Shown: piece after piece, positions 8,649-21,357 of the stretch
How the letters are laid out: each line of letters begins with the position of its first letter
Numbering within the stretch: position 1 is the stretch's first letter
Source of the DNA: Acetobacteraceae bacterium
GTDB lineage: Bacteria > Pseudomonadota > Alphaproteobacteria > Acetobacterales > Acetobacteraceae
Direction: 5' to 3'
NCBI GenBank assembly: GCA_027323595.1
Contig: DAHWBL010000253.1
Location: 1-32,848 of the forward strand
DNA: 32,848 bases
Notes under the pieces: model-generated
Seen by the model: only the letters and a program-made list of their open reading frames with translations
The model's database searches: none
What the model was told of the DNA's origin: nothing
Program-made: the position numbers and the translations under genes

Positions 8649-9860
8649 TCAGCGCGGGAAGCGCGCCGAGACGTCGATGTTGAACAGCTTCGCCGCGGTC
8701 TCGCCAAGGATGTTGCGCCGCGCCTGTTCGGACAGGAAATCGAGGTCCCACACGGTGGTCGGCAGGTCCATGTCCCAATGCGGATAATCCGATGAATAGA
8801 GCAACTGGGTCTCGGCGTTGATCATCTGCATCGTCACCTCGAGCGCGGCGCGGTTGTTCACCGTCTCCATCGGCTGGGTCGAGTAATACATCTGGCGCAT
8901 ATAGTCGCTCGGCAGATGTTTCAGCGCCGGTGCCTCCGACGAGCGCATGCGGTAGTCATTGTCCAGCCGCTGCATCAGCCACGGTATCCAGGCAAGCCCG
9001 CTTTCGATCCAGATCACCTTGAGTTTGGGGAAGCGCTCAGGCAGCCCGTTGATCACCCAGTTGGCGCAATGCACCGCGTTGAACACGGTGAAGCCCACCG
9101 CGTGGGCGGTGATGAAACGGTTCGCCACCGAGATGAGCTGGTCGTTCCAGTGGTAGGAGGCATGAAACGCGATCGGCAGGCCGAGCTCCTCCAGCAGCGC
9201 GTAGGTTTTCATGTAGGCATTGTCGGCCACCGATTTATAGCGGGTGGACACCACCATGAACCCGACCACGCCCTTGCGGCCGGCGAACTCCTTGACGATG
9301 TTGTAGGTGGCTTCGGGATCGTTGAAGGGCAGGTACAGCATCGAGCGCAGCCGGTCGTTCGACGGCAGCACGTTCTCGCAGATCCAGCGATTATAGGCGC
9401 GGGCGAGATTCGCCTCGATCTCGGGCTGGGGGTGCAGCCCCAGGAACAGCATGGGGGTGGGAAACAGGCAGGCGTAATCGACGCACAGCGCGTCCATCCA
9501 GCGCAGCGTCTGCGCCACTTCGCGCGACAGGCCGGGCGCTTCCACCTTCTCGCCCTTGCGCATCTGGTAGCGCATCACCCGCCCGCCCATGTCCTGATAG
9601 CCTGGCTGGTCCATCAGCATGGCCGCCGGGCCCTTGTAGCTGAAGGTGTTGAGCGCGATCTGGCGCAGATTGGGGTCGTCGATATATTGCAGGATCGGAC
9701 CAAAATTGTCGGTTTCGTAGTGATGGCAATCGACATCGATCACCAGCATCTTGTCCAGGCCGCGCTTTTCGGCCTCGGCGCGAGCGTGGCGCAGATGTTT
9801 GCCGCTGTCGAAATCATCGACGGTGCGGTTGTAATCGGGGTCGCTCGAATGAAACAGCAT
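8649..9860 (-). CDS. Amidohydrolase family protein (ACMSD/decarboxylase-like metal-dependent hydrolase)
   Basis: 403 aa; VIDVDCHHYE, LPIAFHASYHW, FPKLKVIWIESGLAWIPWLMQRLD, LLYSSDYPHWD. Confidence 0.88.
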   Translation of the reverse strand: MLFHSSDPDYNRTVDDFDSGKHLRHARAEAEKRGLDKMLVIDVDCHHYETDNFGPILQYIDDPNLRQIALNTFSYKGPAAMLMDQPGYQDMGGRVMRYQMRKGEKVEAPGLSREVAQTLRWMDALCVDYACLFPTPMLFLGLHPQPEIEANLARAYNRWICENVLPSNDRLRSMLYLPFNDPEATYNIVKEFAGRKGVVGFMVVSTRYKSVADNAYMKTYALLEELGLPIAFHASYHWNDQLISVANRFITAHAVGFTVFNAVHCANWVINGLPERFPKLKVIWIESGLAWIPWLMQRLDNDYRMRSSEAPALKHLPSDYMRQMYYSTQPMETVNNRAALEVTMQMINAETQLLYSSDYPHWDMDLPTTVWDLDFLSEQARRNILGETAAKLFNIDVSARFPR

Positions 9861-9870
9861 GGTGCCTCTC

Positions 9871-10251
9871 CTATTGCGCGGCCGGCAGGCGGACGAACAC
9901 GTCGCCGTCGCGCTCGATCACCTCGAAGCGACGCAGCGCGAAACGCGGGTCTCCGGCGGTGCGCCCGGTGGCGATGTCGAATTCCCAGCCGTGCCAGGGA
10001 CAGACCAGATTGAGCCGCGTGCTGTCGAAGCGCATGCCGTGATAGGTGTGATCCGCGGCGAGCACCTCCTCGACCTTGTGGATCAGCATGCCCTCGCAGA
10101 CCGGTCCGCCCTGATGCGGACAATGGTTGGAAAATGCGTGCAGCCGCCCCTGGGCACGCAACACGCCGACCTCGCGCGCGCCGTGCACGATGATCCGCCG
10201 CTCCCCTTCGCCCGCCAGTTCGGCGGCGTGCGCCACGAACACGTCCTGCAT
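9871..10251 (-). CDS. Rieske 2Fe-2S ferredoxin
   Basis: CPHQGGPVCEG and CPWHGWEFDIATG Rieske motifs; start MQDVFVAHAAEL at 10251 preferred over ORF start 10293. Confidence 0.9.
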   Translation of the reverse strand: MQDVFVAHAAELAGEGERRIIVHGAREVGVLRAQGRLHAFSNHCPHQGGPVCEGMLIHKVEEVLAADHTYHGMRFDSTRLNLVCPWHGWEFDIATGRTAGDPRFALRRFEVIERDGDVFVRLPAAQ

Positions 10252-10334
10252 GCGTTGTCTCCCCCGATCACCCGTTGGATATGTTCTGACCATTGCCCGG
10301 GCGCGGGCGCAACGGCGGAATTTTCGCGGGGCAC

Positions 10335-10349
10335 ATGAATTTTCTTCAT
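10335..10349. promoter_or_regulatory. Candidate LysR-type operator ATGAA-N5-TTCAT
   Basis: ATGAATTTTCTTCAT, perfect 5-bp arms, contains T-N11-A; 30 bp before the LysR start, in the divergent Rieske/LysR intergenic region. Confidence 0.5.
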
Positions 10350-10379
10350 CGTCCCGGCGATCGCGGCTATAAGGCCGCC

Positions 10380-11288
10380 ATGATCCGCCGCCTGCCCTCG
10401 CTTGCCTCGCTGCGCGCCTTCGAGGCCGCCGCCCGCCACATGAGCTTCACCCGCGCCGCCGCCGAGCTGAACCTCACCCAGACGGCGGTGAGCCACCAGA
10501 TCCGCAATCTGGAGGAGCATCTGGGCCTGGCTTTGTTCCAGCGGGAGCGCAACTCGCTGCTGCTCACCGCCGCGGCGCGCGACTATCTGGAATCGATCCG
10601 CGCGATCCTGCTCCAGCTCGCCGAGGCGACCGACCGCACCGCCGATCGGGGTCGCGACGAGGTGCTGACATTGGCCTGTCTGAACACCTTCGCGATCAAG
10701 TGTCTGCTGCCGGCGCTGGGCGCCTTCCGGGCCGCCGCACCGGGAATTTCGCTGCGCATCCGCACGGTGATCTCGTTCGATAACCTGCCGCGCCACGACT
10801 ATGATGTCGGCATCCGTTACGGTGTCGGTGACTGGCCGGGACATGTCTGTCAGCGGATCACCTATGATGAGCTGCTGCCGGTCTGTGCGCCCGATCTCGC
10901 GCGCCGGCTGCACAGCCCCGCTGATCTGGCCGCCGAGGTCTGCATCCGCACCATTTCGCCCAATCTGCGCGATGACTGGCCGCTGTGGCTCGACCAGGCC
11001 GGGCTGCGCGATCTGGCGTTCGCCGACGAGCTGACCAGCGATTTTCTGGCGATCTCGCTGCAGGCTGCGGTGGACGGGCTGGGGGTGGCGATGGGGCGTG
11101 GGGCGGTGGTGGCCGAGGACCTGGCGCGCGGGCGGCTGGTGGCGCCGTTCGGGCTGCGCGTGCCAACCCGGCTTGGCTATCACATCGCCGCCCCCGAGGA
11201 CCGCGCCGGTCGCGCCAAGGTTGCCGTGTTCACCAACTGGGCGATGGCACGCTTCACCCCGCTGTCGGGGCCGCCGCCGCGCTCCTGA
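10380..11288 (+). CDS. LysR family transcriptional regulator (GcvA-like)
   Basis: MIRRLPSLASLRAFEAAARHMSFTRAAAELNLTQTAVSHQIRNLEEHLGLALFQR HTH; ORF upstream extension to 10293 judged non-coding. Confidence 0.94.
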   Translation: MIRRLPSLASLRAFEAAARHMSFTRAAAELNLTQTAVSHQIRNLEEHLGLALFQRERNSLLLTAAARDYLESIRAILLQLAEATDRTADRGRDEVLTLACLNTFAIKCLLPALGAFRAAAPGISLRIRTVISFDNLPRHDYDVGIRYGVGDWPGHVCQRITYDELLPVCAPDLARRLHSPADLAAEVCIRTISPNLRDDWPLWLDQAGLRDLAFADELTSDFLAISLQAAVDGLGVAMGRGAVVAEDLARGRLVAPFGLRVPTRLGYHIAAPEDRAGRAKVAVFTNWAMARFTPLSGPPPRS

Positions 11289-11295
11289 GGCGCGA

Positions 11296-12573
11296 TCAGG
11301 CCGCGCGCGGGACCGCCTCCGGCAGCTCCTCGACGAACGGCTGGTCGGGCCGCAGCCAGTGCGCCAGCACCGCGCCGACCAGCAGCAACCCGATCGACAT
11401 CGCGAACGGCCATTGCCACGAGCCGGTGAGGTCCACCGCGAGCCCGAAGCAGAGCGGCGAGAGAATCCCGGCCGCGGCGAAGCCGATGCTGAGATATCCC
11501 CCCGCGGTGCCGGAATAGCGTGGCGCGATGTCCAGGGTGCACAGCCACAGCGGGCCGACCGCGATTTCGAGGAAGAACAGCGCGATGGTCAGCGCAAGCG
11601 CGACGGTGGTGAGATCGGTGGTGATCAGCACGGTGCACAGCGCGAGGAAGGTGAGCAACAGCCCGACGGTGATCTGCCAGGTGCGGGCGATCTCCAGCCG
11701 GCCGGTGCGGCGATAGAGGAAATCGCTGAGCAGCCCGCCAGCGGCGTCGCCGAGCACGCCGCCGAGCAGGATGCCGCCGGAGAACAGCGCCGAGCCTTTC
11801 AAATTCATGTGATATTCCTGCAGAAAGAAGGTCGGCAGCCAGGTCAGATAGACCCAAAGCGTCCAGCCGTAGCAGAAGAAGGTGGCGCTGAGCGGCCATA
11901 GCCGGATGCCCAGCCGCTTGAGCGGGATGCGCTCGCCGGGCACGCGCGGGCGGATCGGGCGCAGGCGCGCGAGTTCGGCGGCCGAGACCCGTGGGTGCTG
12001 GGCGGGGTCGTCGCGGAACCAAGCATACCAGATCACCGCGCACAGCAAGGTGGCGACGCCGACGATGTAGAAGGAGCTGCGCCAGTTGGTCGCCAGGATC
12101 AGCGTGGCGATCAGCGGCGGGGTGATGGCGGTGGCGACGCGGGCGAAGGCGTGGGTGAAGCCCTGGCCGAAGCCCCAGCGTTCCTGCGGCAGCCAGTTGG
12201 TCATCGCGCGGGTCATGGTGGACAGCGCGGCACCTTCACCCAGCCCGACCAGGGCGCGCGCGCCGATCAGCCCGGCCATGCCGCCGGCGGCACCGGTGAG
12301 CAACGTGCCGGCGGCGAAGGACAGCATATACAACGTGAACACCCGGCGCGGGCCAAACCGGTCGGCGAGCCAGCCGCCGAACAGGGTGATCGCGGCATAG
12401 GGATAGGAGAAGGCCGAGAACACCAGCCCCAGATCGGTGTTGGACAGATGCAGCTCGCGGCGCATCTCACCGGCGGCGGTGCCGATGTTGGCGCGATCCA
12501 CGTAGAGGATGAAATACATCAGGCAGATCAGCAGAAAAGTCAGATTCGTTGTTTTCAGCCGCGGCCTGTCCAT
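11296..12573 (-). CDS. MFS transporter (ACS-like anion:cation symporter type)
   Basis: MDRPRLKTTNLTFLLICLMYFILYVDRANIGTA...GGWLADRFGPRRVF; multiple hydrophobic helices. Alternative start at 12618. Confidence 0.9.
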   Translation of the reverse strand: MDRPRLKTTNLTFLLICLMYFILYVDRANIGTAAGEMRRELHLSNTDLGLVFSAFSYPYAAITLFGGWLADRFGPRRVFTLYMLSFAAGTLLTGAAGGMAGLIGARALVGLGEGAALSTMTRAMTNWLPQERWGFGQGFTHAFARVATAITPPLIATLILATNWRSSFYIVGVATLLCAVIWYAWFRDDPAQHPRVSAAELARLRPIRPRVPGERIPLKRLGIRLWPLSATFFCYGWTLWVYLTWLPTFFLQEYHMNLKGSALFSGGILLGGVLGDAAGGLLSDFLYRRTGRLEIARTWQITVGLLLTFLALCTVLITTDLTTVALALTIALFFLEIAVGPLWLCTLDIAPRYSGTAGGYLSIGFAAAGILSPLCFGLAVDLTGSWQWPFAMSIGLLLVGAVLAHWLRPDQPFVEELPEAVPRAA

Positions 12574-12674
12574 GTGCGTTTCCCCCTTGTGATCCCGCCG
12601 GCCGCTTGATTGCGACACTCAATTGCACCATCGCCGGGTCCGCGTTCTGGCGCGACCACGAATTGCATGCCCTT

Positions 12675-12695
12675 GGGATGAAGTTTATTCATCCC
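12675..12695. promoter_or_regulatory. Candidate LysR-type operator GGGATGAA-N5-TTCATCCC
   Basis: Perfect 8-bp inverted repeat around 5-bp spacer in the divergent MFS/CoxG-like intergenic region; core ATGAA-N5-TTCAT identical to the site at 10335-10349; extra half-site TTGGGATGAA at 12774-12783. Confidence 0.6.
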
Positions 12696-12844
12696 ATATC
12701 CCCGACGCCGGCGCCATACCGCCCGGATCGTTGACAGCACGGCGATCCGGCTGCAAAGCCTGCGGCACGTCAGTTGGGATGAAACAGCGTGCGGGTGATC
12801 GACGTCCAGGCATCACGCGGCCGCTTGCAGGTGGGTATGTCAAC

Positions 12845-13336
12845 ATGAAATTCGACGGCGGCTTCACCGTTCCGGCTGAGCGTGAGATCGTGTTCGCCCG
12901 GCTCAATGACCCGCATTTCTTCGCCTCCTGCCTCGATGGGGTGAGCGAGCTCGTCGAGGTCGATCCGACGCATTTCACCGCCCGGCTGGCCACCCGCATC
13001 GCCTACATCAAGTTCAACTTCGCCATCTCCGTCGAGATCGCCGAGATCGTCGCGCCGAGCCGGGTGGTGGCCAAATCCGAGGGCACACCGCTGGGCATCG
13101 TGGGGCGGCTGACCGCGCTCGCCACCGCGGATCTGCAGGCGAGCGTGGCCGAGGATGGCAGCGCGCAGACCGAGGTGACCTACGAGATCGACGTGTCGCT
13201 TGCCGGCAAGCTTGGCAGCATCGGCCAGCCGGTGCTGCGCTCCAAGGCGCGCGAGATGGAGCGATCGTTCGTCGAGAAGCTGCACGCCGCCTTCGCGACC
13301 GCGCCGGATGGCACCGTCCAGGAGATCGTATCATGA
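12845..13336 (+). CDS. CoxG-like SRPBCC family protein
   Basis: MKFDGGFTVPAEREIVFARLNDPHFFASCLDGVSELVEVD...; position directly before the molybdenum hydroxylase genes. ORF start 12623 lies upstream across the intergenic dyad. Confidence 0.87.
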   Translation: MKFDGGFTVPAEREIVFARLNDPHFFASCLDGVSELVEVDPTHFTARLATRIAYIKFNFAISVEIAEIVAPSRVVAKSEGTPLGIVGRLTALATADLQASVAEDGSAQTEVTYEIDVSLAGKLGSIGQPVLRSKAREMERSFVEKLHAAFATAPDGTVQEIVS

Positions 13337-14193
13337 GAGGCTTCGAGTTCCTTCGCCCCGGCACGCTGAACGAGGCATCGGCGCTGCTCGCCACCGGTGA
13401 CGCGGCGGCGCGGCCTTTCGCCGGCGGCACCGGGCTGATGCTGATGATGAAGACCGGTGTGTTCTCGCCCTCGCGCCTGGTGTGCCTGCGGCAGACCGAG
13501 GCCGAGCATCGCGCCATCACGCCGACCGGGGATGGCGGCGCGCGCATCGGCGCGTTGGCGAGCCTCAGCCAGATCGAGCATGATCCGCTGCTGTGCCGGC
13601 TCGCCCCGGTGATCGCGCGCACCATGACGACGCTGGCCAATGTGCGGGTGCGCAATGTGGCGCGCATCGGCGGCACGCTGGCGCATGGCGACCCGCACAT
13701 GGACATGCCGCCGACGCTGGCCGCGTTGCGCGCGAGCGTGGTCACCAGCGGCACCGCCAGCCGCACCGTGCCGGTCGAGGCGCTCTATGCCGGCTATTAT
13801 GAAACCATCCTTCAGCCCGGCGAGCTGATCTCGGCCGTGCTGCTGCCCGATCAGACAGGCTGGCACAGTGTTTATCTGAAATGCACGACCCGCAGCGCGG
13901 ATGACTGGCCGGCGCTGGGGGTGGCGGTGTCGGTGCGCATGGACGGCACCACGATCACCGACAGCAGGGTGATCATTTCGGCCGCGACCGAAAAACTGAC
14001 CCGTGTTGCCGCCGCCGAGGCGGTGCTGAACGGGGCAACCGCGGGGCTTGCGGCATTCACCGCGGCGGGAGAGGCGGCGCGCGCGGTGGAGACGATCGAG
14101 GATGCGCGCGGCTCGGCCGCCTACAAGACCGAGCTGGTCGGGGTTTATGTGCGGCGCGCGTTGCAGCAGGCCACCGGCGCGGGAGGGAACTGA
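13333..14193 (+). CDS. FAD-binding medium subunit of xanthine dehydrogenase/CoxM family
   Basis: MRGFEFLRPGTLNEASALLATGDAAARPFAGGTGLMLMMK; TLANVRVRNVARIGGTLAHGDPHMDMPPTLAAL; ATGA overlap with preceding gene. Confidence 0.93.
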   Translation: MRGFEFLRPGTLNEASALLATGDAAARPFAGGTGLMLMMKTGVFSPSRLVCLRQTEAEHRAITPTGDGGARIGALASLSQIEHDPLLCRLAPVIARTMTTLANVRVRNVARIGGTLAHGDPHMDMPPTLAALRASVVTSGTASRTVPVEALYAGYYETILQPGELISAVLLPDQTGWHSVYLKCTTRSADDWPALGVAVSVRMDGTTITDSRVIISAATEKLTRVAAAEAVLNGATAGLAAFTAAGEAARAVETIEDARGSAAYKTELVGVYVRRALQQATGAGGN

Positions 14194-14194
14194 G

Positions 14195-16486
14195 ATGAAC
14201 GAGATCCGCAGCATCTCCGCAAAGCAGGTCGGCCGCGATGTGCCGCGGCTGGAAAGTCGCCAGAAGGTCACTGGCCGGGCCGAATACACCCACAACATCA
14301 CCCTGCCCGGCATGCTGTATGCCAAGCTGTGCCGCAGCACCGTCGCGCATGGGCGCATCCTGTCGATCGATGTGTCCGCTGCGCGGGATTTGCCGGGGGT
14401 TCACGCGGTCTATACCGGCGAGACGATCCGCACGCTGATCGCCGAGCCCTATTTCGGTCCGGCCTTTCATGATCAGCCGATTCTGGCGATCGGCAAGGTG
14501 CATTTCGTCGGCGAGCCGATCGCGGTGGTGCTGGCCGCCGACCCCTATGTCGCGGCCGAGGCGGCGCAGATGATCGTCGCCGAGTATGAGGAGCTGCCGG
14601 CGGTGTTCGATGAGGTCGAGGCGATGACCTCGGCGGCGATCGTGCATGAGACGCTGAAGCCGGCGGGCACCTTCGCCGATCTGAAGCATCTGTCGGGCAA
14701 GAGCAACACCAACGTCGCGCTCGATTATCAACTGCGTCGCGGCGACACCGATGCCGCCTTCGCCGCCGCCGAGCATGTGTTCGAGCATGAATTCCATACC
14801 CAGCAGGTGATGCACACGCCGCTCGAACCGATGGTCTCCATCGCCGAGCCGGGCGACAATTGCCTGACCATCTATACCGCCTCGCAAAGCCCCTCGTTCG
14901 TGTGCACCGAGATCGCGCGGCTGTTCGGCTGGCGCGAGAATCAGGTGCGGGTGAAGGTGCCGTATCTGGGCGGCGGGTTCGGCGCCAAGCTGTACATCAA
15001 GCTGGAGGCGCTGGTCGCGGCCGCGGCTATGCTCGCGCGCCGGCCGGTGAAATTGTCGCTGACGATGGAAGAACAATTCTACACCATCACCAAGCACGCA
15101 TCGACGTTTCGGATCAAAAGCGCGGTGAACAAGGATGGCCGCATCACCGCGCGGCGCTGCGAGATTTTCTGGAATGGCGGCGCCTTCGCCGACATCGGGC
15201 CACGGGTGACGCAGAAATCCGGATTCACCTCGCCGGGGCCGTATGACATCGACAATGTCTCGGTGGATTCGTACGCGCTCTACACCAACCGTCCGCCCGC
15301 CGGCGCGCTGCGCGGCTTTGGCATTCCGCAGCTGGTCTGGGCCTATGAGAGCCACACCGACCTCCTGGCGCGCGGCATCGGCATGGACGCGGTGGAATTC
15401 CGCCGTCGCAACCTGCTGCGCGAGGGCCGTCCGCAGGCGACCGGAACTTTGATGCACGATGCTGCCATCATCGAGGTTCTGGACAAGACCGCCGAGCTGA
15501 TGAACTGGACCGCGCCGTTCGAGCGTGGCGAGGGAGTGATCCGCCGTGGCCGCGCGATCGCCATCGGCTTCAAGGCGGTGGTGGCGCCGACCACCTCGGG
15601 GGCGATCGTCAATCTGTCCGCCGATGGGTCCGCGGCACTTTACATGTCCACCGTCGATATGGGCCAGGGCAGCGACACCGCGATGGCGCAGATCGTTGCC
15701 GAAACGCTCGGACTTGTCGCCGAACGGGTGAAGGTGGTGCATCCCGATACCGACGTGACCCCGTATGACATGGCAACGCTTGGATCGCGCTCCACTTTCC
15801 ATATGGGCAATGCGGTGAAGCTCGCCTCGCTGCATGCGCTGGAGCAGCTTGGCGCGATGGCACGCGAGGTTGGTCTGCCGGAGGGCACCAACTACGAGAT
15901 CCGGGATATCTTCCTGAAGAAATATGGCATGCAGGCCGGCAATATCATCGGTGTGGGCAGCTACGTGCCGCCCTACACCTCGCCGCAGAAGGGCACCGGG
16001 CTGTCCGACAACGTCACCCCGTTCTGGATGGTGGGCGCGGCGGGTGTGGAACTGTCGGTCGATACCGAGACTGGGCATGTGACGATCGACCGGCTGATCA
16101 ATGTCGCCGATGTGGGCCGGCCGCTGAACCCGGCGATCGTCGCCACCCAGCTATCGGGTGCGGCGATGATGCAGTTGGGCTTCACCCTGTTCGAGAACAT
16201 GGATCTCGATCACGGCCAGGTCACCAACGCCTCGCTCGCCGACTACAAGATACCGGGCATGCACGACCTGCCGACGGTGATGGACAACGTGATCGTCGAT
16301 AACAACCAGCAGAACGGCCCTTACGGCGCCAAGGGGGTTGGCGAGACCGCCACCTTCGGCGTGTCGCCGGCGATCGCCAACGCCATCGAGGACGCGGTGG
16401 GCGTGCGTCTGACTTCCCTGCCGCTGACGCCCGAATCGGTGTTGCGCGGCATCCGCGCGCTGCGCGGCGAAAAGCTGGAGGGCTGA
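14195..16486 (+). CDS. Molybdopterin-binding large subunit, xanthine dehydrogenase/CoxL family (not a CO dehydrogenase signature)
   Basis: MNEIRSISAKQVGRDVPRLESRQKVTGRAEYTHNITLPGMLYAKL; PYLGGGFGAK; PPAGALRGFGIPQ; GPYGAKGVGETATFGVSPAIANAI. ORF start at 14048 overlaps the upstream gene; 14195 is motif-consistent. Confidence 0.93.
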   Translation: MNEIRSISAKQVGRDVPRLESRQKVTGRAEYTHNITLPGMLYAKLCRSTVAHGRILSIDVSAARDLPGVHAVYTGETIRTLIAEPYFGPAFHDQPILAIGKVHFVGEPIAVVLAADPYVAAEAAQMIVAEYEELPAVFDEVEAMTSAAIVHETLKPAGTFADLKHLSGKSNTNVALDYQLRRGDTDAAFAAAEHVFEHEFHTQQVMHTPLEPMVSIAEPGDNCLTIYTASQSPSFVCTEIARLFGWRENQVRVKVPYLGGGFGAKLYIKLEALVAAAAMLARRPVKLSLTMEEQFYTITKHASTFRIKSAVNKDGRITARRCEIFWNGGAFADIGPRVTQKSGFTSPGPYDIDNVSVDSYALYTNRPPAGALRGFGIPQLVWAYESHTDLLARGIGMDAVEFRRRNLLREGRPQATGTLMHDAAIIEVLDKTAELMNWTAPFERGEGVIRRGRAIAIGFKAVVAPTTSGAIVNLSADGSAALYMSTVDMGQGSDTAMAQIVAETLGLVAERVKVVHPDTDVTPYDMATLGSRSTFHMGNAVKLASLHALEQLGAMAREVGLPEGTNYEIRDIFLKKYGMQAGNIIGVGSYVPPYTSPQKGTGLSDNVTPFWMVGAAGVELSVDTETGHVTIDRLINVADVGRPLNPAIVATQLSGAAMMQLGFTLFENMDLDHGQVTNASLADYKIPGMHDLPTVMDNVIVDNNQQNGPYGAKGVGETATFGVSPAIANAIEDAVGVRLTSLPLTPESVLRGIRALRGEKLEG

Positions 16487-16488
16487 AC

Positions 16489-16977
16489 ATGACCGAGGTC
16501 AGATGCGATATCGCCTTCACCCTCAATGGCGCGCCGGTCGCGCTCAACATCGGCGGGCATGAGAACATCGTTGATGTGCTCAAGCGCCTTGGCCTGAGCG
16601 GCGCGCGCGAGAGCTGCGGCCAGGGCCTGTGCGGCTGCTGCACCGTGATCATCGACGGCGTCGCCGAATCCGGCTGTCTGACGCTGGCGCAACTGGTTGA
16701 TGGGCGCTCGGTGCAGACCATCGAGGGGCTGGATGCCGACGGGGCGCTGAGCCCGGTGCAGCAGGCCTTCATCGATGCCGGCGCGCTGCAATGCGGCTTC
16801 TGCGCGCCTGGCTTCGTGCTGATGAGCCACCAGTTGCTGGCCGCCAATCCCGACCCGAGCGAGGCCGAGATCCGCGATTATCTGAGCGGCAATCTGTGTC
16901 GCTGCGCCACCTATCCGGAGATCATCAAGGCGGTGCGCCTGGCGGCGAGCCGGATGCGCGCCGCCCAGGCGGCCTGA
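16489..16977 (+). CDS. (2Fe-2S)-binding small subunit, CoxS family
   Basis: ESCGQGLCGCCTVIIDG, CGFCAPGFVLMSHQLL, NLCRCATYPEIIKAV. Confidence 0.95.
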   Translation: MTEVRCDIAFTLNGAPVALNIGGHENIVDVLKRLGLSGARESCGQGLCGCCTVIIDGVAESGCLTLAQLVDGRSVQTIEGLDADGALSPVQQAFIDAGALQCGFCAPGFVLMSHQLLAANPDPSEAEIRDYLSGNLCRCATYPEIIKAVRLAASRMRAAQAA

Positions 16978-16992: not shown

Positions 16993-18330
16993 ATGACCAC
17001 GCACGCGACAGCCGCCCCGGATGTGGCCTGGTACAAAGCGCTCGATCGCTCGCAATGGACGACCCTGCTGGCCACCAATCTGGGCTGGCTGTTCGACGGC
17101 TATGAGAATTACGCGCTGATCCTCACCGTTGGCCCGGCGTTGCATCAGCTGCTGGTGCCGGCGGAATATGCGCGCATTCCGTTCTTCGCCGGCGCGGTGA
17201 TCGCGATCAATCTGCTGGGCTGGGGCATCGGTGGGCTGATCGGCGGCGTGCTCGCCGATTATATCGGCCGCAAGCGGATGATGCTGATTTCCATCCTCGC
17301 CTATTCGCTGCTGACCGGTGCCTCCGCGCTCGCGGCCAACTGGTGGAGCTTCGCGATCCTGCGTTTCATGGTCGGGCTCGCGGTTGGTTCGGAATGGGCG
17401 ACCGGCAGCAGCATGATCGCCGAATTGTGGCCCGACCGTGCGCGTGGGCGTGGCGCGGGGCTGATGCAATGCGGGCTGGGCATCGGGTTTTTCGTCGCCG
17501 CCTTCGTCTGGCTGTTCGTCGCGCCGTTCGGCGCCGGCGCCTGGCGGGCGATGTATCTGATCGGCGTGCTGCCGGCGCTGCTCACCTTGTGGCTGCGCCG
17601 TTCGATCGACGAATCGGTGCTGTGGCGGGCGGCCAAGGCGCGGCGCGACGCCGCGATCGCGCGGCGGCGGGCGGGCGCGCGGCTGACCGAGGCGGAGCAT
17701 CAGACCACCAAATTCACCCTCACCGATCTGTTCTCGGACCGCGCGACGCGCGGGCGCACCATCGCTGTGTTCGCGATGTCGCTGACCACCACGTTCGGCT
17801 TTTGGAGCATCTCAAGCTGGGTGCCGCCGTATGTCGGGGGCATCGCCGCGGCCGGCGGGCTGGCGGCGGCGCAATGGGCGAGCTTCGCGGGCATGGCTTA
17901 TACCGGCGGGTCGGTGGCCGGCTATGTGGCGTTCGGGTTTCTGGCCGACTGGCTGGGCCGCAAGCCGGTGACGCTGGCCTTCATGCTGCTGGCGCTGCTG
18001 CTCACCCCGGTATTGTTCTTCGCCACCCACGATCTGGTGTGGTTGCTGGTGCTGGCTTTCGCGAACGCGATCTTTTCCAACGGCCAATATAGCTGGATGC
18101 CGGTGTGGCTGCCCGAATTGTATCCCACCCGCATGCGCGCCACCGCGTTGGCATTTGCCTTCAACGCGCCACGGCTGATCGCGTTTCTGGGGCCGCTGCT
18201 GGCAGGCACCATGATCGCCGATTTCGGCGGGTTCGGGCGCGCGGCGATGGTGTTTTCCTCGATCTATGTGCTCGGGCTGATCGCCACGTTCTTCCTGCCG
18301 GAAACCCTGGGACAGAAGCTGCCCGAATAG
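16993..18330 (+). CDS. MFS transporter (aromatic acid/sugar porter-like)
   Basis: 445 aa; NLGWLFDGYENYALILTVGPAL, GGVLADYIGRKRMM, RFMVGLAVGSEWATGSSMIAELWP. Confidence 0.9.
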   Translation: MTTHATAAPDVAWYKALDRSQWTTLLATNLGWLFDGYENYALILTVGPALHQLLVPAEYARIPFFAGAVIAINLLGWGIGGLIGGVLADYIGRKRMMLISILAYSLLTGASALAANWWSFAILRFMVGLAVGSEWATGSSMIAELWPDRARGRGAGLMQCGLGIGFFVAAFVWLFVAPFGAGAWRAMYLIGVLPALLTLWLRRSIDESVLWRAAKARRDAAIARRRAGARLTEAEHQTTKFTLTDLFSDRATRGRTIAVFAMSLTTTFGFWSISSWVPPYVGGIAAAGGLAAAQWASFAGMAYTGGSVAGYVAFGFLADWLGRKPVTLAFMLLALLLTPVLFFATHDLVWLLVLAFANAIFSNGQYSWMPVWLPELYPTRMRATALAFAFNAPRLIAFLGPLLAGTMIADFGGFGRAAMVFSSIYVLGLIATFFLPETLGQKLPE

Positions 18331-18404
18331 GCCGGCCGGATCGGCCCTTCCCAACCCTGGGGCGGGCCTGCTACCTGCGGGTGGTTCTCCCACGCGGAGG
18401 TTTT

Positions 18405-19490
18405 GTGGACACACGCCCGCCAGCCGGCGCCCGACCGACCAGCGCCCCCGCGCCCACGCGCGGCGCCCCGGTGCGCGCGCGCGCACCGTTGCGGCTGGGC
18501 CTGGCCGGCGGCGGTACCGACGTGTCGCCCTACGCCGATCTGCATGGCGGCGCGGTGATGAACGCCACCATCGACCGTTTCGTCTATTGCTCGCTGAGCT
18601 GGCGCGATGACCAGCAGGTGGAGCTGGAAAGTGTCGATCTGGCGCAGTCGGCGCGCTATCCGGCGACGGGGCTTTTGCCGATCGACGGGCGGCTCGATCT
18701 GCCCAAGGCGGTCTATAATCGGGTGATGCGCGATTATTTCGGCGGCCAGGCGCTGCCGCTGCATCTGACCACCTATTCACAGGCGCCGGCCGGCTCGGGG
18801 CTTGGTTCCTCCTCGACCCTGGTGGTGGCGGTGTTGCAGGCCTTCACCGAATTGCTGTCGCTGCCGCTTGGCGAATATGACGTGGCGCATTTGGCCTATG
18901 TGATCGAGCGGGTCGAGCTGGGGCTGCATGGCGGCCGGCAGGACCAGTACGCGGCCACCTTCGGCGGCTTCAATTTCATGGAATTTCGCGACGCCGACGC
19001 GGTGATCGTCAATCCGCTGCGGATCAAGGCGGCGGTCATCAACGAGCTGGAGGCGCAGTTGCTGCTGTGCTTCTCCGGGGTCAGCCGCGACAGCGCCACC
19101 ATCATCGCCGAGCAGTCGCGCAATGTCGAAGCCGGCTCCAGCAAATCCATCGAGGCGATGCATCGGCTGAAGGCGTCGGCGGTGTCGATGAAGGAGGCGC
19201 TGCTGAAGGGCAATCTCGCGGCGCTGGCCGACAGTCTGCGCGAGGGCTGGGACAGCAAGCGCGACATGGCGTCCGGCATCAGCACCTCGCACATCGAGCA
19301 GGCGCTGCGCATCGCGATGGCGGCCGGGGCGCATGCCGGCAAGGTGTCGGGCGCTGGCGGCGGTGGCTTCATCATGCTGCTCGCGCCGCTGGAGCGCCGC
19401 CCGTCGGTGATCGCGGCCCTGGCCGATGCCGGGTTTCGCGCCGAATCCTGCCGTTTCACCGCCGAGGGAGCCACCGCATGGCGGATCTGA
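18405..19490 (+). CDS. hddA: GHMP kinase, D-glycero-D-manno-heptose 7-phosphate kinase-like
   Basis: RAPLRLGLAGGGTDVSPYADLHGGAVMNATIDRF, GSGLGSSSTLVVAVLQAF, GAGGGGFIMLL; GTG start at 18405 preceded by GGAGG; followed by gmhA/hddC/gmhB. Confidence 0.87.
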   Translation: MDTRPPAGARPTSAPAPTRGAPVRARAPLRLGLAGGGTDVSPYADLHGGAVMNATIDRFVYCSLSWRDDQQVELESVDLAQSARYPATGLLPIDGRLDLPKAVYNRVMRDYFGGQALPLHLTTYSQAPAGSGLGSSSTLVVAVLQAFTELLSLPLGEYDVAHLAYVIERVELGLHGGRQDQYAATFGGFNFMEFRDADAVIVNPLRIKAAVINELEAQLLLCFSGVSRDSATIIAEQSRNVEAGSSKSIEAMHRLKASAVSMKEALLKGNLAALADSLREGWDSKRDMASGISTSHIEQALRIAMAAGAHAGKVSGAGGGGFIMLLAPLERRPSVIAALADAGFRAESCRFTAEGATAWRI

Positions 19491-20092
19491 CCGCATCCGA
19501 CCCGTCCCGCGCCGCCACCGTGGCCAGCTCGATCCGCGGTTCGGCCGAATTGCTGGCACGGGTCGCCGCGGATGCCGCACTGTGCGCCGTGACCGAACAG
19601 GCCGCCGCCCTGGTGTGCGCGCGGCTGCGGGCGGGCAACAAGCTGTTGCTGTGCGGCAATGGCGGCAGTGCGGCGGACGCGCAGCATTGGGCCGGCGAGC
19701 TGGTGTCGCGCTTCAATTACGACCGTCCCGGCCTTGCCGCCGTGGCGCTCACCACCGACAGCTCGAACCTGACGGCGATCGGCAACGACTATGGCTATGA
19801 GCGGGTCTTCTCGCGCCAGGTCGAGGCGCTCGGGCAGCCGGGCGATGTGCTGTTCGCGCTGTCCACCTCCGGCCGGTCGCCCAACATCGTGGCCGCGCTG
19901 GTCGCGGCGCGGGCGCGTGGGCTGGCGAGCGTGGGGTTCACCGGGGCGAGCGGCGGTGACATGGCGGCGCTGTGCGACCTCATCGTTCGCGTGCCCAGCA
20001 CGGCCACTCCGGCGATCCAGGAAGTGCATGAGGTGCTGGGGCACATCATCTGCGGCATGATCGAGGCCGAGATGTTCCCTCGGCCTGGCTGA
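19478..20092 (+). CDS. gmhA: SIS-domain phosphoheptose isomerase
   Basis: KLLLCGNGGSAADAQHWAGELVSRFNYDRPGL, NDYGYERVFSRQVEALG, FALSTSGRSPNI; start ATG 19478 overlaps hddA end. Confidence 0.92.
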   Translation: MADLTASDPSRAATVASSIRGSAELLARVAADAALCAVTEQAAALVCARLRAGNKLLLCGNGGSAADAQHWAGELVSRFNYDRPGLAAVALTTDSSNLTAIGNDYGYERVFSRQVEALGQPGDVLFALSTSGRSPNIVAALVAARARGLASVGFTGASGGDMAALCDLIVRVPSTATPAIQEVHEVLGHIICGMIEAEMFPRPG

Positions 20093-20797
20093 ATGGACGC
20101 GCCGACCGAGGCCATCGTGCTCGCCGGCGGGCTGGGCACGCGGTTGCGACCGGTGGTCGCGGATGTGCCCAAACCGCTGGCGCCGATCGCCGGCAAGCCG
20201 TTTCTGTTCTGGCTGCTCGACGGGCTGGCGCGCCAGGGCATCGGCCATGTGCTGCTCGCCACCGGCTATATGAGCGGGGCGATCGCCGAGGCGGTCGGAC
20301 CGGCCCATGCGGGCATGCGGATCAGCCATCTGCCGGAGCCGGCGCCGCTTGGCACCGGCGGGGCGATCTGGGCGGCGCTTGGCGCGTGTTCCACCGAGCG
20401 GGTGCTGGTGGCCAACGGGGATAGCTGGATCGGCGCGCGCATCGCGGACCTGGCCGCGCACGCGCCGGCCGCCGACATCGTGCTGACCTTGCGCCCGGTG
20501 CCGGACCGGGCGCGCTATGGCAGCGTGCGGCTGGCGGGCGACCTAGTGCTGGGGCTGGACGAAAAAGGGCAATCCGGGCCGGGACTGGTCAATGCCGGGC
20601 TGTATCTGATGCGCGCGGATCTGCCGGCGCGGCGGATGATGCCCGCCTCGTTCAGTCTGGAGACCGAGGTTTTCGCGCGGCCCGACGGGCTCGATGTGCG
20701 CGGCTGGCAGACCGATGCGCCGTTCATCGACATCGGCACACCACAGGATTTCGCCGCCGCGCAGGCGCTGCTGCCGCGCTGGGCCGCGCAGGCATGA
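20093..20797 (+). CDS. hddC: Nucleotidyltransferase, D-glycero-D-manno-heptose 1-phosphate guanylyltransferase-like
   Basis: AIVLAGGLGTRLRPVVADVPKPLAPIAGKPFLFWLLDGL; stop/start junction TGAATG with gmhA. Confidence 0.87.
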   Translation: MDAPTEAIVLAGGLGTRLRPVVADVPKPLAPIAGKPFLFWLLDGLARQGIGHVLLATGYMSGAIAEAVGPAHAGMRISHLPEPAPLGTGGAIWAALGACSTERVLVANGDSWIGARIADLAAHAPAADIVLTLRPVPDRARYGSVRLAGDLVLGLDEKGQSGPGLVNAGLYLMRADLPARRMMPASFSLETEVFARPDGLDVRGWQTDAPFIDIGTPQDFAAAQALLPRWAAQA

Positions 20798-21357
20798 CCC
20801 CGCGGCACCTGGTCCCGGCGCTGTTTCTGGATCGCGACGGCATCATCAATCTCGATCTGGGCTATGTGCATCGCATCGAGGATTTCATCTTTCGCGACGG
20901 CATTTTCGCGCTGTGCGCCGCCGCCCAGGCGCGCGGGCTGGCGCTGGTGATCGTCACCAACCAGGCCGGGATCGGGCGCGGCTATTTCACCGAGGCCGAT
21001 TTTCATCTGCTCACCGAGTGGATGACCGGCGAGTTCGCGCGCCAGGGCATCGTCATCGCCGGCGTCGAGTTCTGCCCCGACCACCCCACCCACGGCATCG
21101 GCGCGTATCGTCGCGACAGCCCTCGCCGCAAGCCCGCACCGGGGATGATCCTGGACGCCGCGGCCACGCACGGGCTCGATCCGGCGGGCTCGGTGATGCT
21201 GGGCGATCGTGCCACCGACATGCTGGCCGGGCGCGCCGCCGGGGTGGGCCGGCTGCTGCTGCTGCCGGCGGACGCCGCCGAGGCGCGGGCCGCACCGGCG
21301 GGAACCATCATCATCGAAAATGCCGGCCCGGCCGGGGCGATCGAGCATCTTCCCTGA
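20794..21357 (+). CDS. gmhB: HAD-family D-glycero-D-manno-heptose 1,7-bisphosphate 7-phosphatase
   Basis: ALFLDRDGIINLDLGYVHRIEDFIF, VIVTNQAGIGRGYFTE, RKPAPGMILDAA, MLGDRATDMLAG. Confidence 0.91.
   Translation: MTPRHLVPALFLDRDGIINLDLGYVHRIEDFIFRDGIFALCAAAQARGLALVIVTNQAGIGRGYFTEADFHLLTEWMTGEFARQGIVIAGVEFCPDHPTHGIGAYRRDSPRRKPAPGMILDAAATHGLDPAGSVMLGDRATDMLAGRAAGVGRLLLLPADAAEARAAPAGTIIIENAGPAGAIEHLP

Follow-up and report, generated by a model that had tools for sequence, protein, structure and literature searches.

Genomic context of the two dyads

The window, i.e. the whole 32,848 nt stretch of DNA analysed, contains a GcvA-subfamily LysR-type regulator gene with a divergent Rieske–amidohydrolase gene pair on one side and, on the other, an MFS transporter gene and a molybdenum hydroxylase operon (Table 1). 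A literature search for this gene set found no match. Two divergent intergenic regions carry an exact ATGAA-N5-TTCAT dyad. Site 1 lies between the starts of the Rieske gene (10251, − strand) and lysR (10380, + strand); site 2 lies in the 271 bp gap between the starts of the MFS gene (12573, − strand) and coxG (12845, + strand). The preliminary description of this DNA had reported an identical dyad core and spacer length in the two regions, and both matches are indeed exact, site 1 at the position assigned to it and site 2 within a longer, 21 bp perfect dyad at 12675–12695 (GGGATGAA-gttta-TTCATCCC). Both interrupted dyads also have the T-N11-A form of LysR boxes that had been proposed for them. 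Elsewhere in the window, at 18105–21357, a row of GHMP kinase, SIS, nucleotidyltransferase and HAD genes resembles an activated-heptose pathway.

Table 1. Genes, dyads and candidate promoter elements around the two intergenic regions
Feature	Position	Strand	Remarks
Amidohydrolase (Amidohydro_2)	8649..9860	-	PF04909; congener copy 94 % identical
Rieske [2Fe-2S] protein	9871..10251	-	PF00355; congener copy 77 % identical
Candidate -35 TTGCGC of Rieske–amidohydrolase promoter	10307..10312	-	Predicted; block common to congener
Degenerate second element CAACGGCGGAATTTTC, counterpart of homologue block CAAACGATnnTTTGTC	10310..10325	+	Centre 24.5 bp from site 1; 8/14 matches
Site 1 ATGAATTTTCTTCAT, predicted high-affinity recognition site (RBS) of LysR regulator	10335..10349	none	Perfect in congener; matrix rank 1
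GcvA-subfamily LysR-type regulator, recognition helix LNLTQTAVSHQIRNLE	10380..11288	+	PF00126 + PF03466; NF008352
MFS transporter	11296..12573	-	PF07690
TCGCGC, candidate -35 facing MFS	12650..12655	-	Predicted; spaced from site 2 as TTGCGC is from site 1
Site 2 ATGAAGTTTATTCAT, predicted operator	12678..12692	none	Matrix rank 2; absent in congener
Candidate coxG promoter TTGACA-N17-CAAAGC	12731..12759	+	Kept in congener; -10 not consensus
coxG-FAD-MoCo-FeS (molybdenum hydroxylase) operon	12845..16977	+	PF06240, PF00941, PF02738/PF20256, PF01799

Within the window the exact motif is confined to sites 1 and 2, and shuffled versions of the window contained a mean of 0.01 matches and never two. 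The scan was extended to the 3,337,721 bases (3.34 Mb) of the genome, where three exact matches were found; two of these are the intergenic sites described here, which are separated by 2.3 kb. The remaining match falls across the start codon of a nucleotide-sugar-dehydrogenase-like gene in a different contig and is therefore probably a chance occurrence. The looser form ATGA-N7-TCAT has 17 genomic matches, mostly inside long open frames; alone it is not diagnostic.

Identity of the regulator

The regulator scores 297.4 bits against the GcvA-subfamily model NF008352, narrowly over the curated cut-off of 288. The genome contains 15 LysR-type helix–turn–helix matches. A scan of ten other LysRs found no second full GcvA-type regulator (best score 167 vs 288 bits). 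L174, L176, L178 and L179 stood outside that scan; the first two align with the query regulator at 26–29 % identity (44–56 bits), and the last two gave no usable alignment. No site comparable to the dyads was found upstream of the other aligned LysR genes of the genome. Likewise, a whole-genome model search found no MetR (best score 55 bits vs a cut-off of 382). The genome is about 92 % complete, hence neither absence is absolute. As neither MetR nor another full GcvA-type regulator turned up, site 2 has its natural and simplest candidate ligand in the local LysR.

Likeness to MetR boxes had also been pointed out, and the motif is identical to the published metR–metE consensus ATGAA-n5-TTCAT (PMC5002191). 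The likeness holds for the DNA and does not extend to the protein, which belongs by score to the GcvA subfamily. Ownership of both sites by MetR is extremely improbable, given that MetR was not found in the 92 %-complete genome, that there are no methionine genes at the sites and that the motif, as described below, tracks a LysR lineage across genera.

Conservation of site 1 and of its motif

In the only close relative compared, a congener (G001) whose LysR is 80 % identical, all 15 bases of site 1 are identical (L005/L034). The distance to lysR is also the same (-45), and the flanks have diverged. Outside the genus, even the closest LysR homologues do not exceed 49 % identity, and ATGA-N7-TCAT or a near variant is often located directly 5′ of their genes. 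The exact form occurs within 65 bp upstream in 26 of 28 non-identical homologues with a Gln-Thr recognition helix, the type present in the window regulator, and in 2 of 41 with other residues there, counts that are inflated by kinship, above all within Bradyrhizobium, and are not independent. The background expectation in the same loci is about 0.0003 per 65 bp. Besides Bradyrhizobium, the Gln-Thr group has members in several genera of the window's own family and in a Pseudomonas; the motif follows this LysR lineage across genera.

Site 1 is conserved and separates the regulator gene from a divergent target. Because it is perfect in the congener, and because the same motif is found in the same place upstream of many homologues, its predicted role as an operator of the adjacent GcvA-like LysR is strongly supported.

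The case for site 2

A symmetric matrix was built from the homologues alone, with the window and the congener left out; its sequences are related, many of them from Bradyrhizobium. Among 32,832 window positions, the two highest scores fell on site 1 (22.7 bits) and site 2 (21.7 bits), and the third was 12.9. Intergenic-like random sequence would yield about 0.0002 scores this high in a gap the size of that between MFS and coxG. Given this rank and the failure to find another full GcvA-type or MetR regulator, site 2 is a well supported predicted operator of the same GcvA-like LysR. The earlier proposal of a LysR operator is thus upheld at both sites, more firmly at site 1.

An alternative is that only site 1 is a LysR operator, site 2 being a chance dyad or the site of another regulator, with the MFS gene and the coxG operon outside the regulon. 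The congener, which retains both MFS and coxG yet lacks site 2, is consistent with this, as are the longer (8 bp) arms of site 2 and its flanks, which are unlike those of site 1. It is nevertheless unlikely, since the two sites share all 10 arm bases and an AT-rich spacer, since site 2 ranks second in the matrix scan and since no MetR or other full GcvA-type LysR was found (ten others scanned for GcvA). A second alternative takes site 2 for an RNA hairpin, either leader or terminator, and not for a site of protein binding. Its folding energy of -13.4 kcal/mol (z -2.4) would fit; the reading is very unlikely for a dyad that is flanked by two divergent gene starts, precedes a conserved candidate coxG promoter, has no T-run after it and resembles site 1 in sequence beyond mere symmetry.

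Comparison of orthologous intergenic regions, proposed in the preliminary description, was possible for this one congener and bore out site 1 and not site 2. In the congener a RidA-like gene (named by eye from the sequence) is located between MFS and coxG, and the best matrix score in the MFS–ridA–coxG region is 7.7, in the coxG start. A search of 398 family genomes for coxG orthologues found the congener alone, and the motif was not found in the stretches examined around distant MFS homologues (50–56 % identical). The congener's MFS upstream region (L115, G001:C497, reverse complement ~500–530) has a perfect dyad of its own, GCGACACTC-ATTGC-GAGTGTCGC, of which the left half alone is kept in the window, at ~12611–12619.

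Promoter geometry

In 89 homologues an CAAACGATnnTTTGTC element is located 23.5–24.5 bp from the dyad; its counterpart beside site 1 is degenerate and weak on its own. On the Rieske side of site 1, the two species have the block ATTCCGCnnTTGCGCC in common. With TTGCGC as its -35 element, the Rieske promoter would start transcription near 10277, and site 1 would be centred near -65. Scans of both regions found no consensus promoters.

When the MFS-facing flank of site 2 is set against the Rieske side of site 1, 11 of 17 positions are identical (P 0.003 for each such comparison; the 17-position block was picked after looking), as against 5 of 17 for the coxG-facing flank. Over the whole 32 bp flank the likeness is weak (14/32, P 0.05). 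Site 2 would be near -81 of the candidate coxG promoter, an atypical distance in comparison with the usual -65. The resemblance of the MFS-side flank to the Rieske-side flank of site 1, together with the -81 position for coxG, suggests that MFS is a likelier target of site 2 than coxG. The congener shares the candidate coxG promoter and little of the remaining gap sequence.

At the GcvA spacing, a second copy beside site 1 is degenerate (3/8 matches), and reading of the sequence at the expected 22 bp from site 2 found no second inverted repeat. The best CAAACGATnnTTTGTC-like element beside site 2 (9/14 matches, 23.5 bp away) is in the opposite orientation and was given no weight.

Proposed regulation

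Both dyads are probable operators of the GcvA-like LysR, and the likely arrangement is that this intervening regulator recognizes site 1 for control of the Rieske–amidohydrolase pair and of itself, and site 2 most likely for control of MFS and possibly of coxG. A regulator dimer on site 1 would cover the promoter region of lysR itself, at about -65 relative to the predicted Rieske–amidohydrolase start, and its occupancy could lead to autorepression of lysR. In the presence of a catabolic inducer, the same site may support activation of the Rieske–amidohydrolase pair through contact with the weaker second element near the -35. From site 2 the same LysR would most likely control MFS, and possibly the coxG molybdenum hydroxylase operon, in this species only. 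Autorepression combined with inducer-dependent activation would be expected by analogy with gcvA–gcvB and metR–metE (PMC5002191). Binding, the direction of regulation, the inducer and the side served by site 2 are inferred.

The preliminary description had placed four transcription units in one regulon. That proposal is supported only in part: the absence of site 2 from the sole close relative and the atypical coxG promoter distance make the four-unit regulon possible or plausible rather than probable. More tentatively still, at somewhat less than even chances, the regulator may be a genus-restricted GcvA-type protein with a MetR-like operator, whose Gln-Thr helix fixes the ATGA half-site and to which a recent second operator has added MFS and the molybdenum hydroxylase operon in this species only.

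Systems of this kind are well known, and self-binding sites beside a LysR gene are ordinary biology. An uncharacterized regulator does gain a concrete predicted operator and an initial set of candidate targets, by which the Rieske–amidohydrolase pair would be linked, perhaps together with a molybdenum hydroxylase of uncharacterized substrate. Additionally, the tie seen in homologues between recognition-helix residues and half-site could help to predict the operators of many GcvA-like regulators.

Comparison with known systems

The E. coli gcvA–gcvB system involves the same LysR subfamily by NCBIfam and likewise has a 15 bp T-N11-A dyad between the regulator and a divergent target, near -65; the inverted repeats at gcvB are located at -65 and -43 (PMC5002191). 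Unlike the present locus, E. coli GcvA has the half-site ATTAG (ATTAG-n5-CTAAT) in place of ATGAA, and neither dyad has that E. coli form. It also has two repeats 22 bp apart, the second of which is degenerate at site 1, and its targets are gcvB and gcvTHP instead of catabolic genes. The MetR boxes of metR–metE share the divergent layout as well as the consensus, whereas family scoring does not class the window regulator as MetR, and no methionine genes lie at the sites.

GcvA-like LysRs of Bradyrhizobium (48–49 % identical) also have ATGA-N7-TCAT directly 5′ of the gene, and some have amidohydrolase and Rieske genes in the vicinity, a few kb away in several loci. The gene order differs from that of the window, and a coxG operon of this kind was not found in the stretches examined. 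A second exact ATGA-N7-TCAT is often present 121 bp further upstream; in L036–L060 the two copies are at about -157 and -36 of the LysR gene.

Two further inverted repeats were seen in the stretches examined. In L127 (1495–1520) a dyad, GATCATGAG-CTTGT-CTCATGATC, lies upstream of a dksA-like gene and scores 21.3 bits with the matrix, with no LysR gene near within the stretch. In L125 and L126 (~1490–1525) a short hairpin, CCCGCATGAGC-N-GCTCATACGGGCTAC, is present in two copies on different contigs and is perhaps a repeat element.
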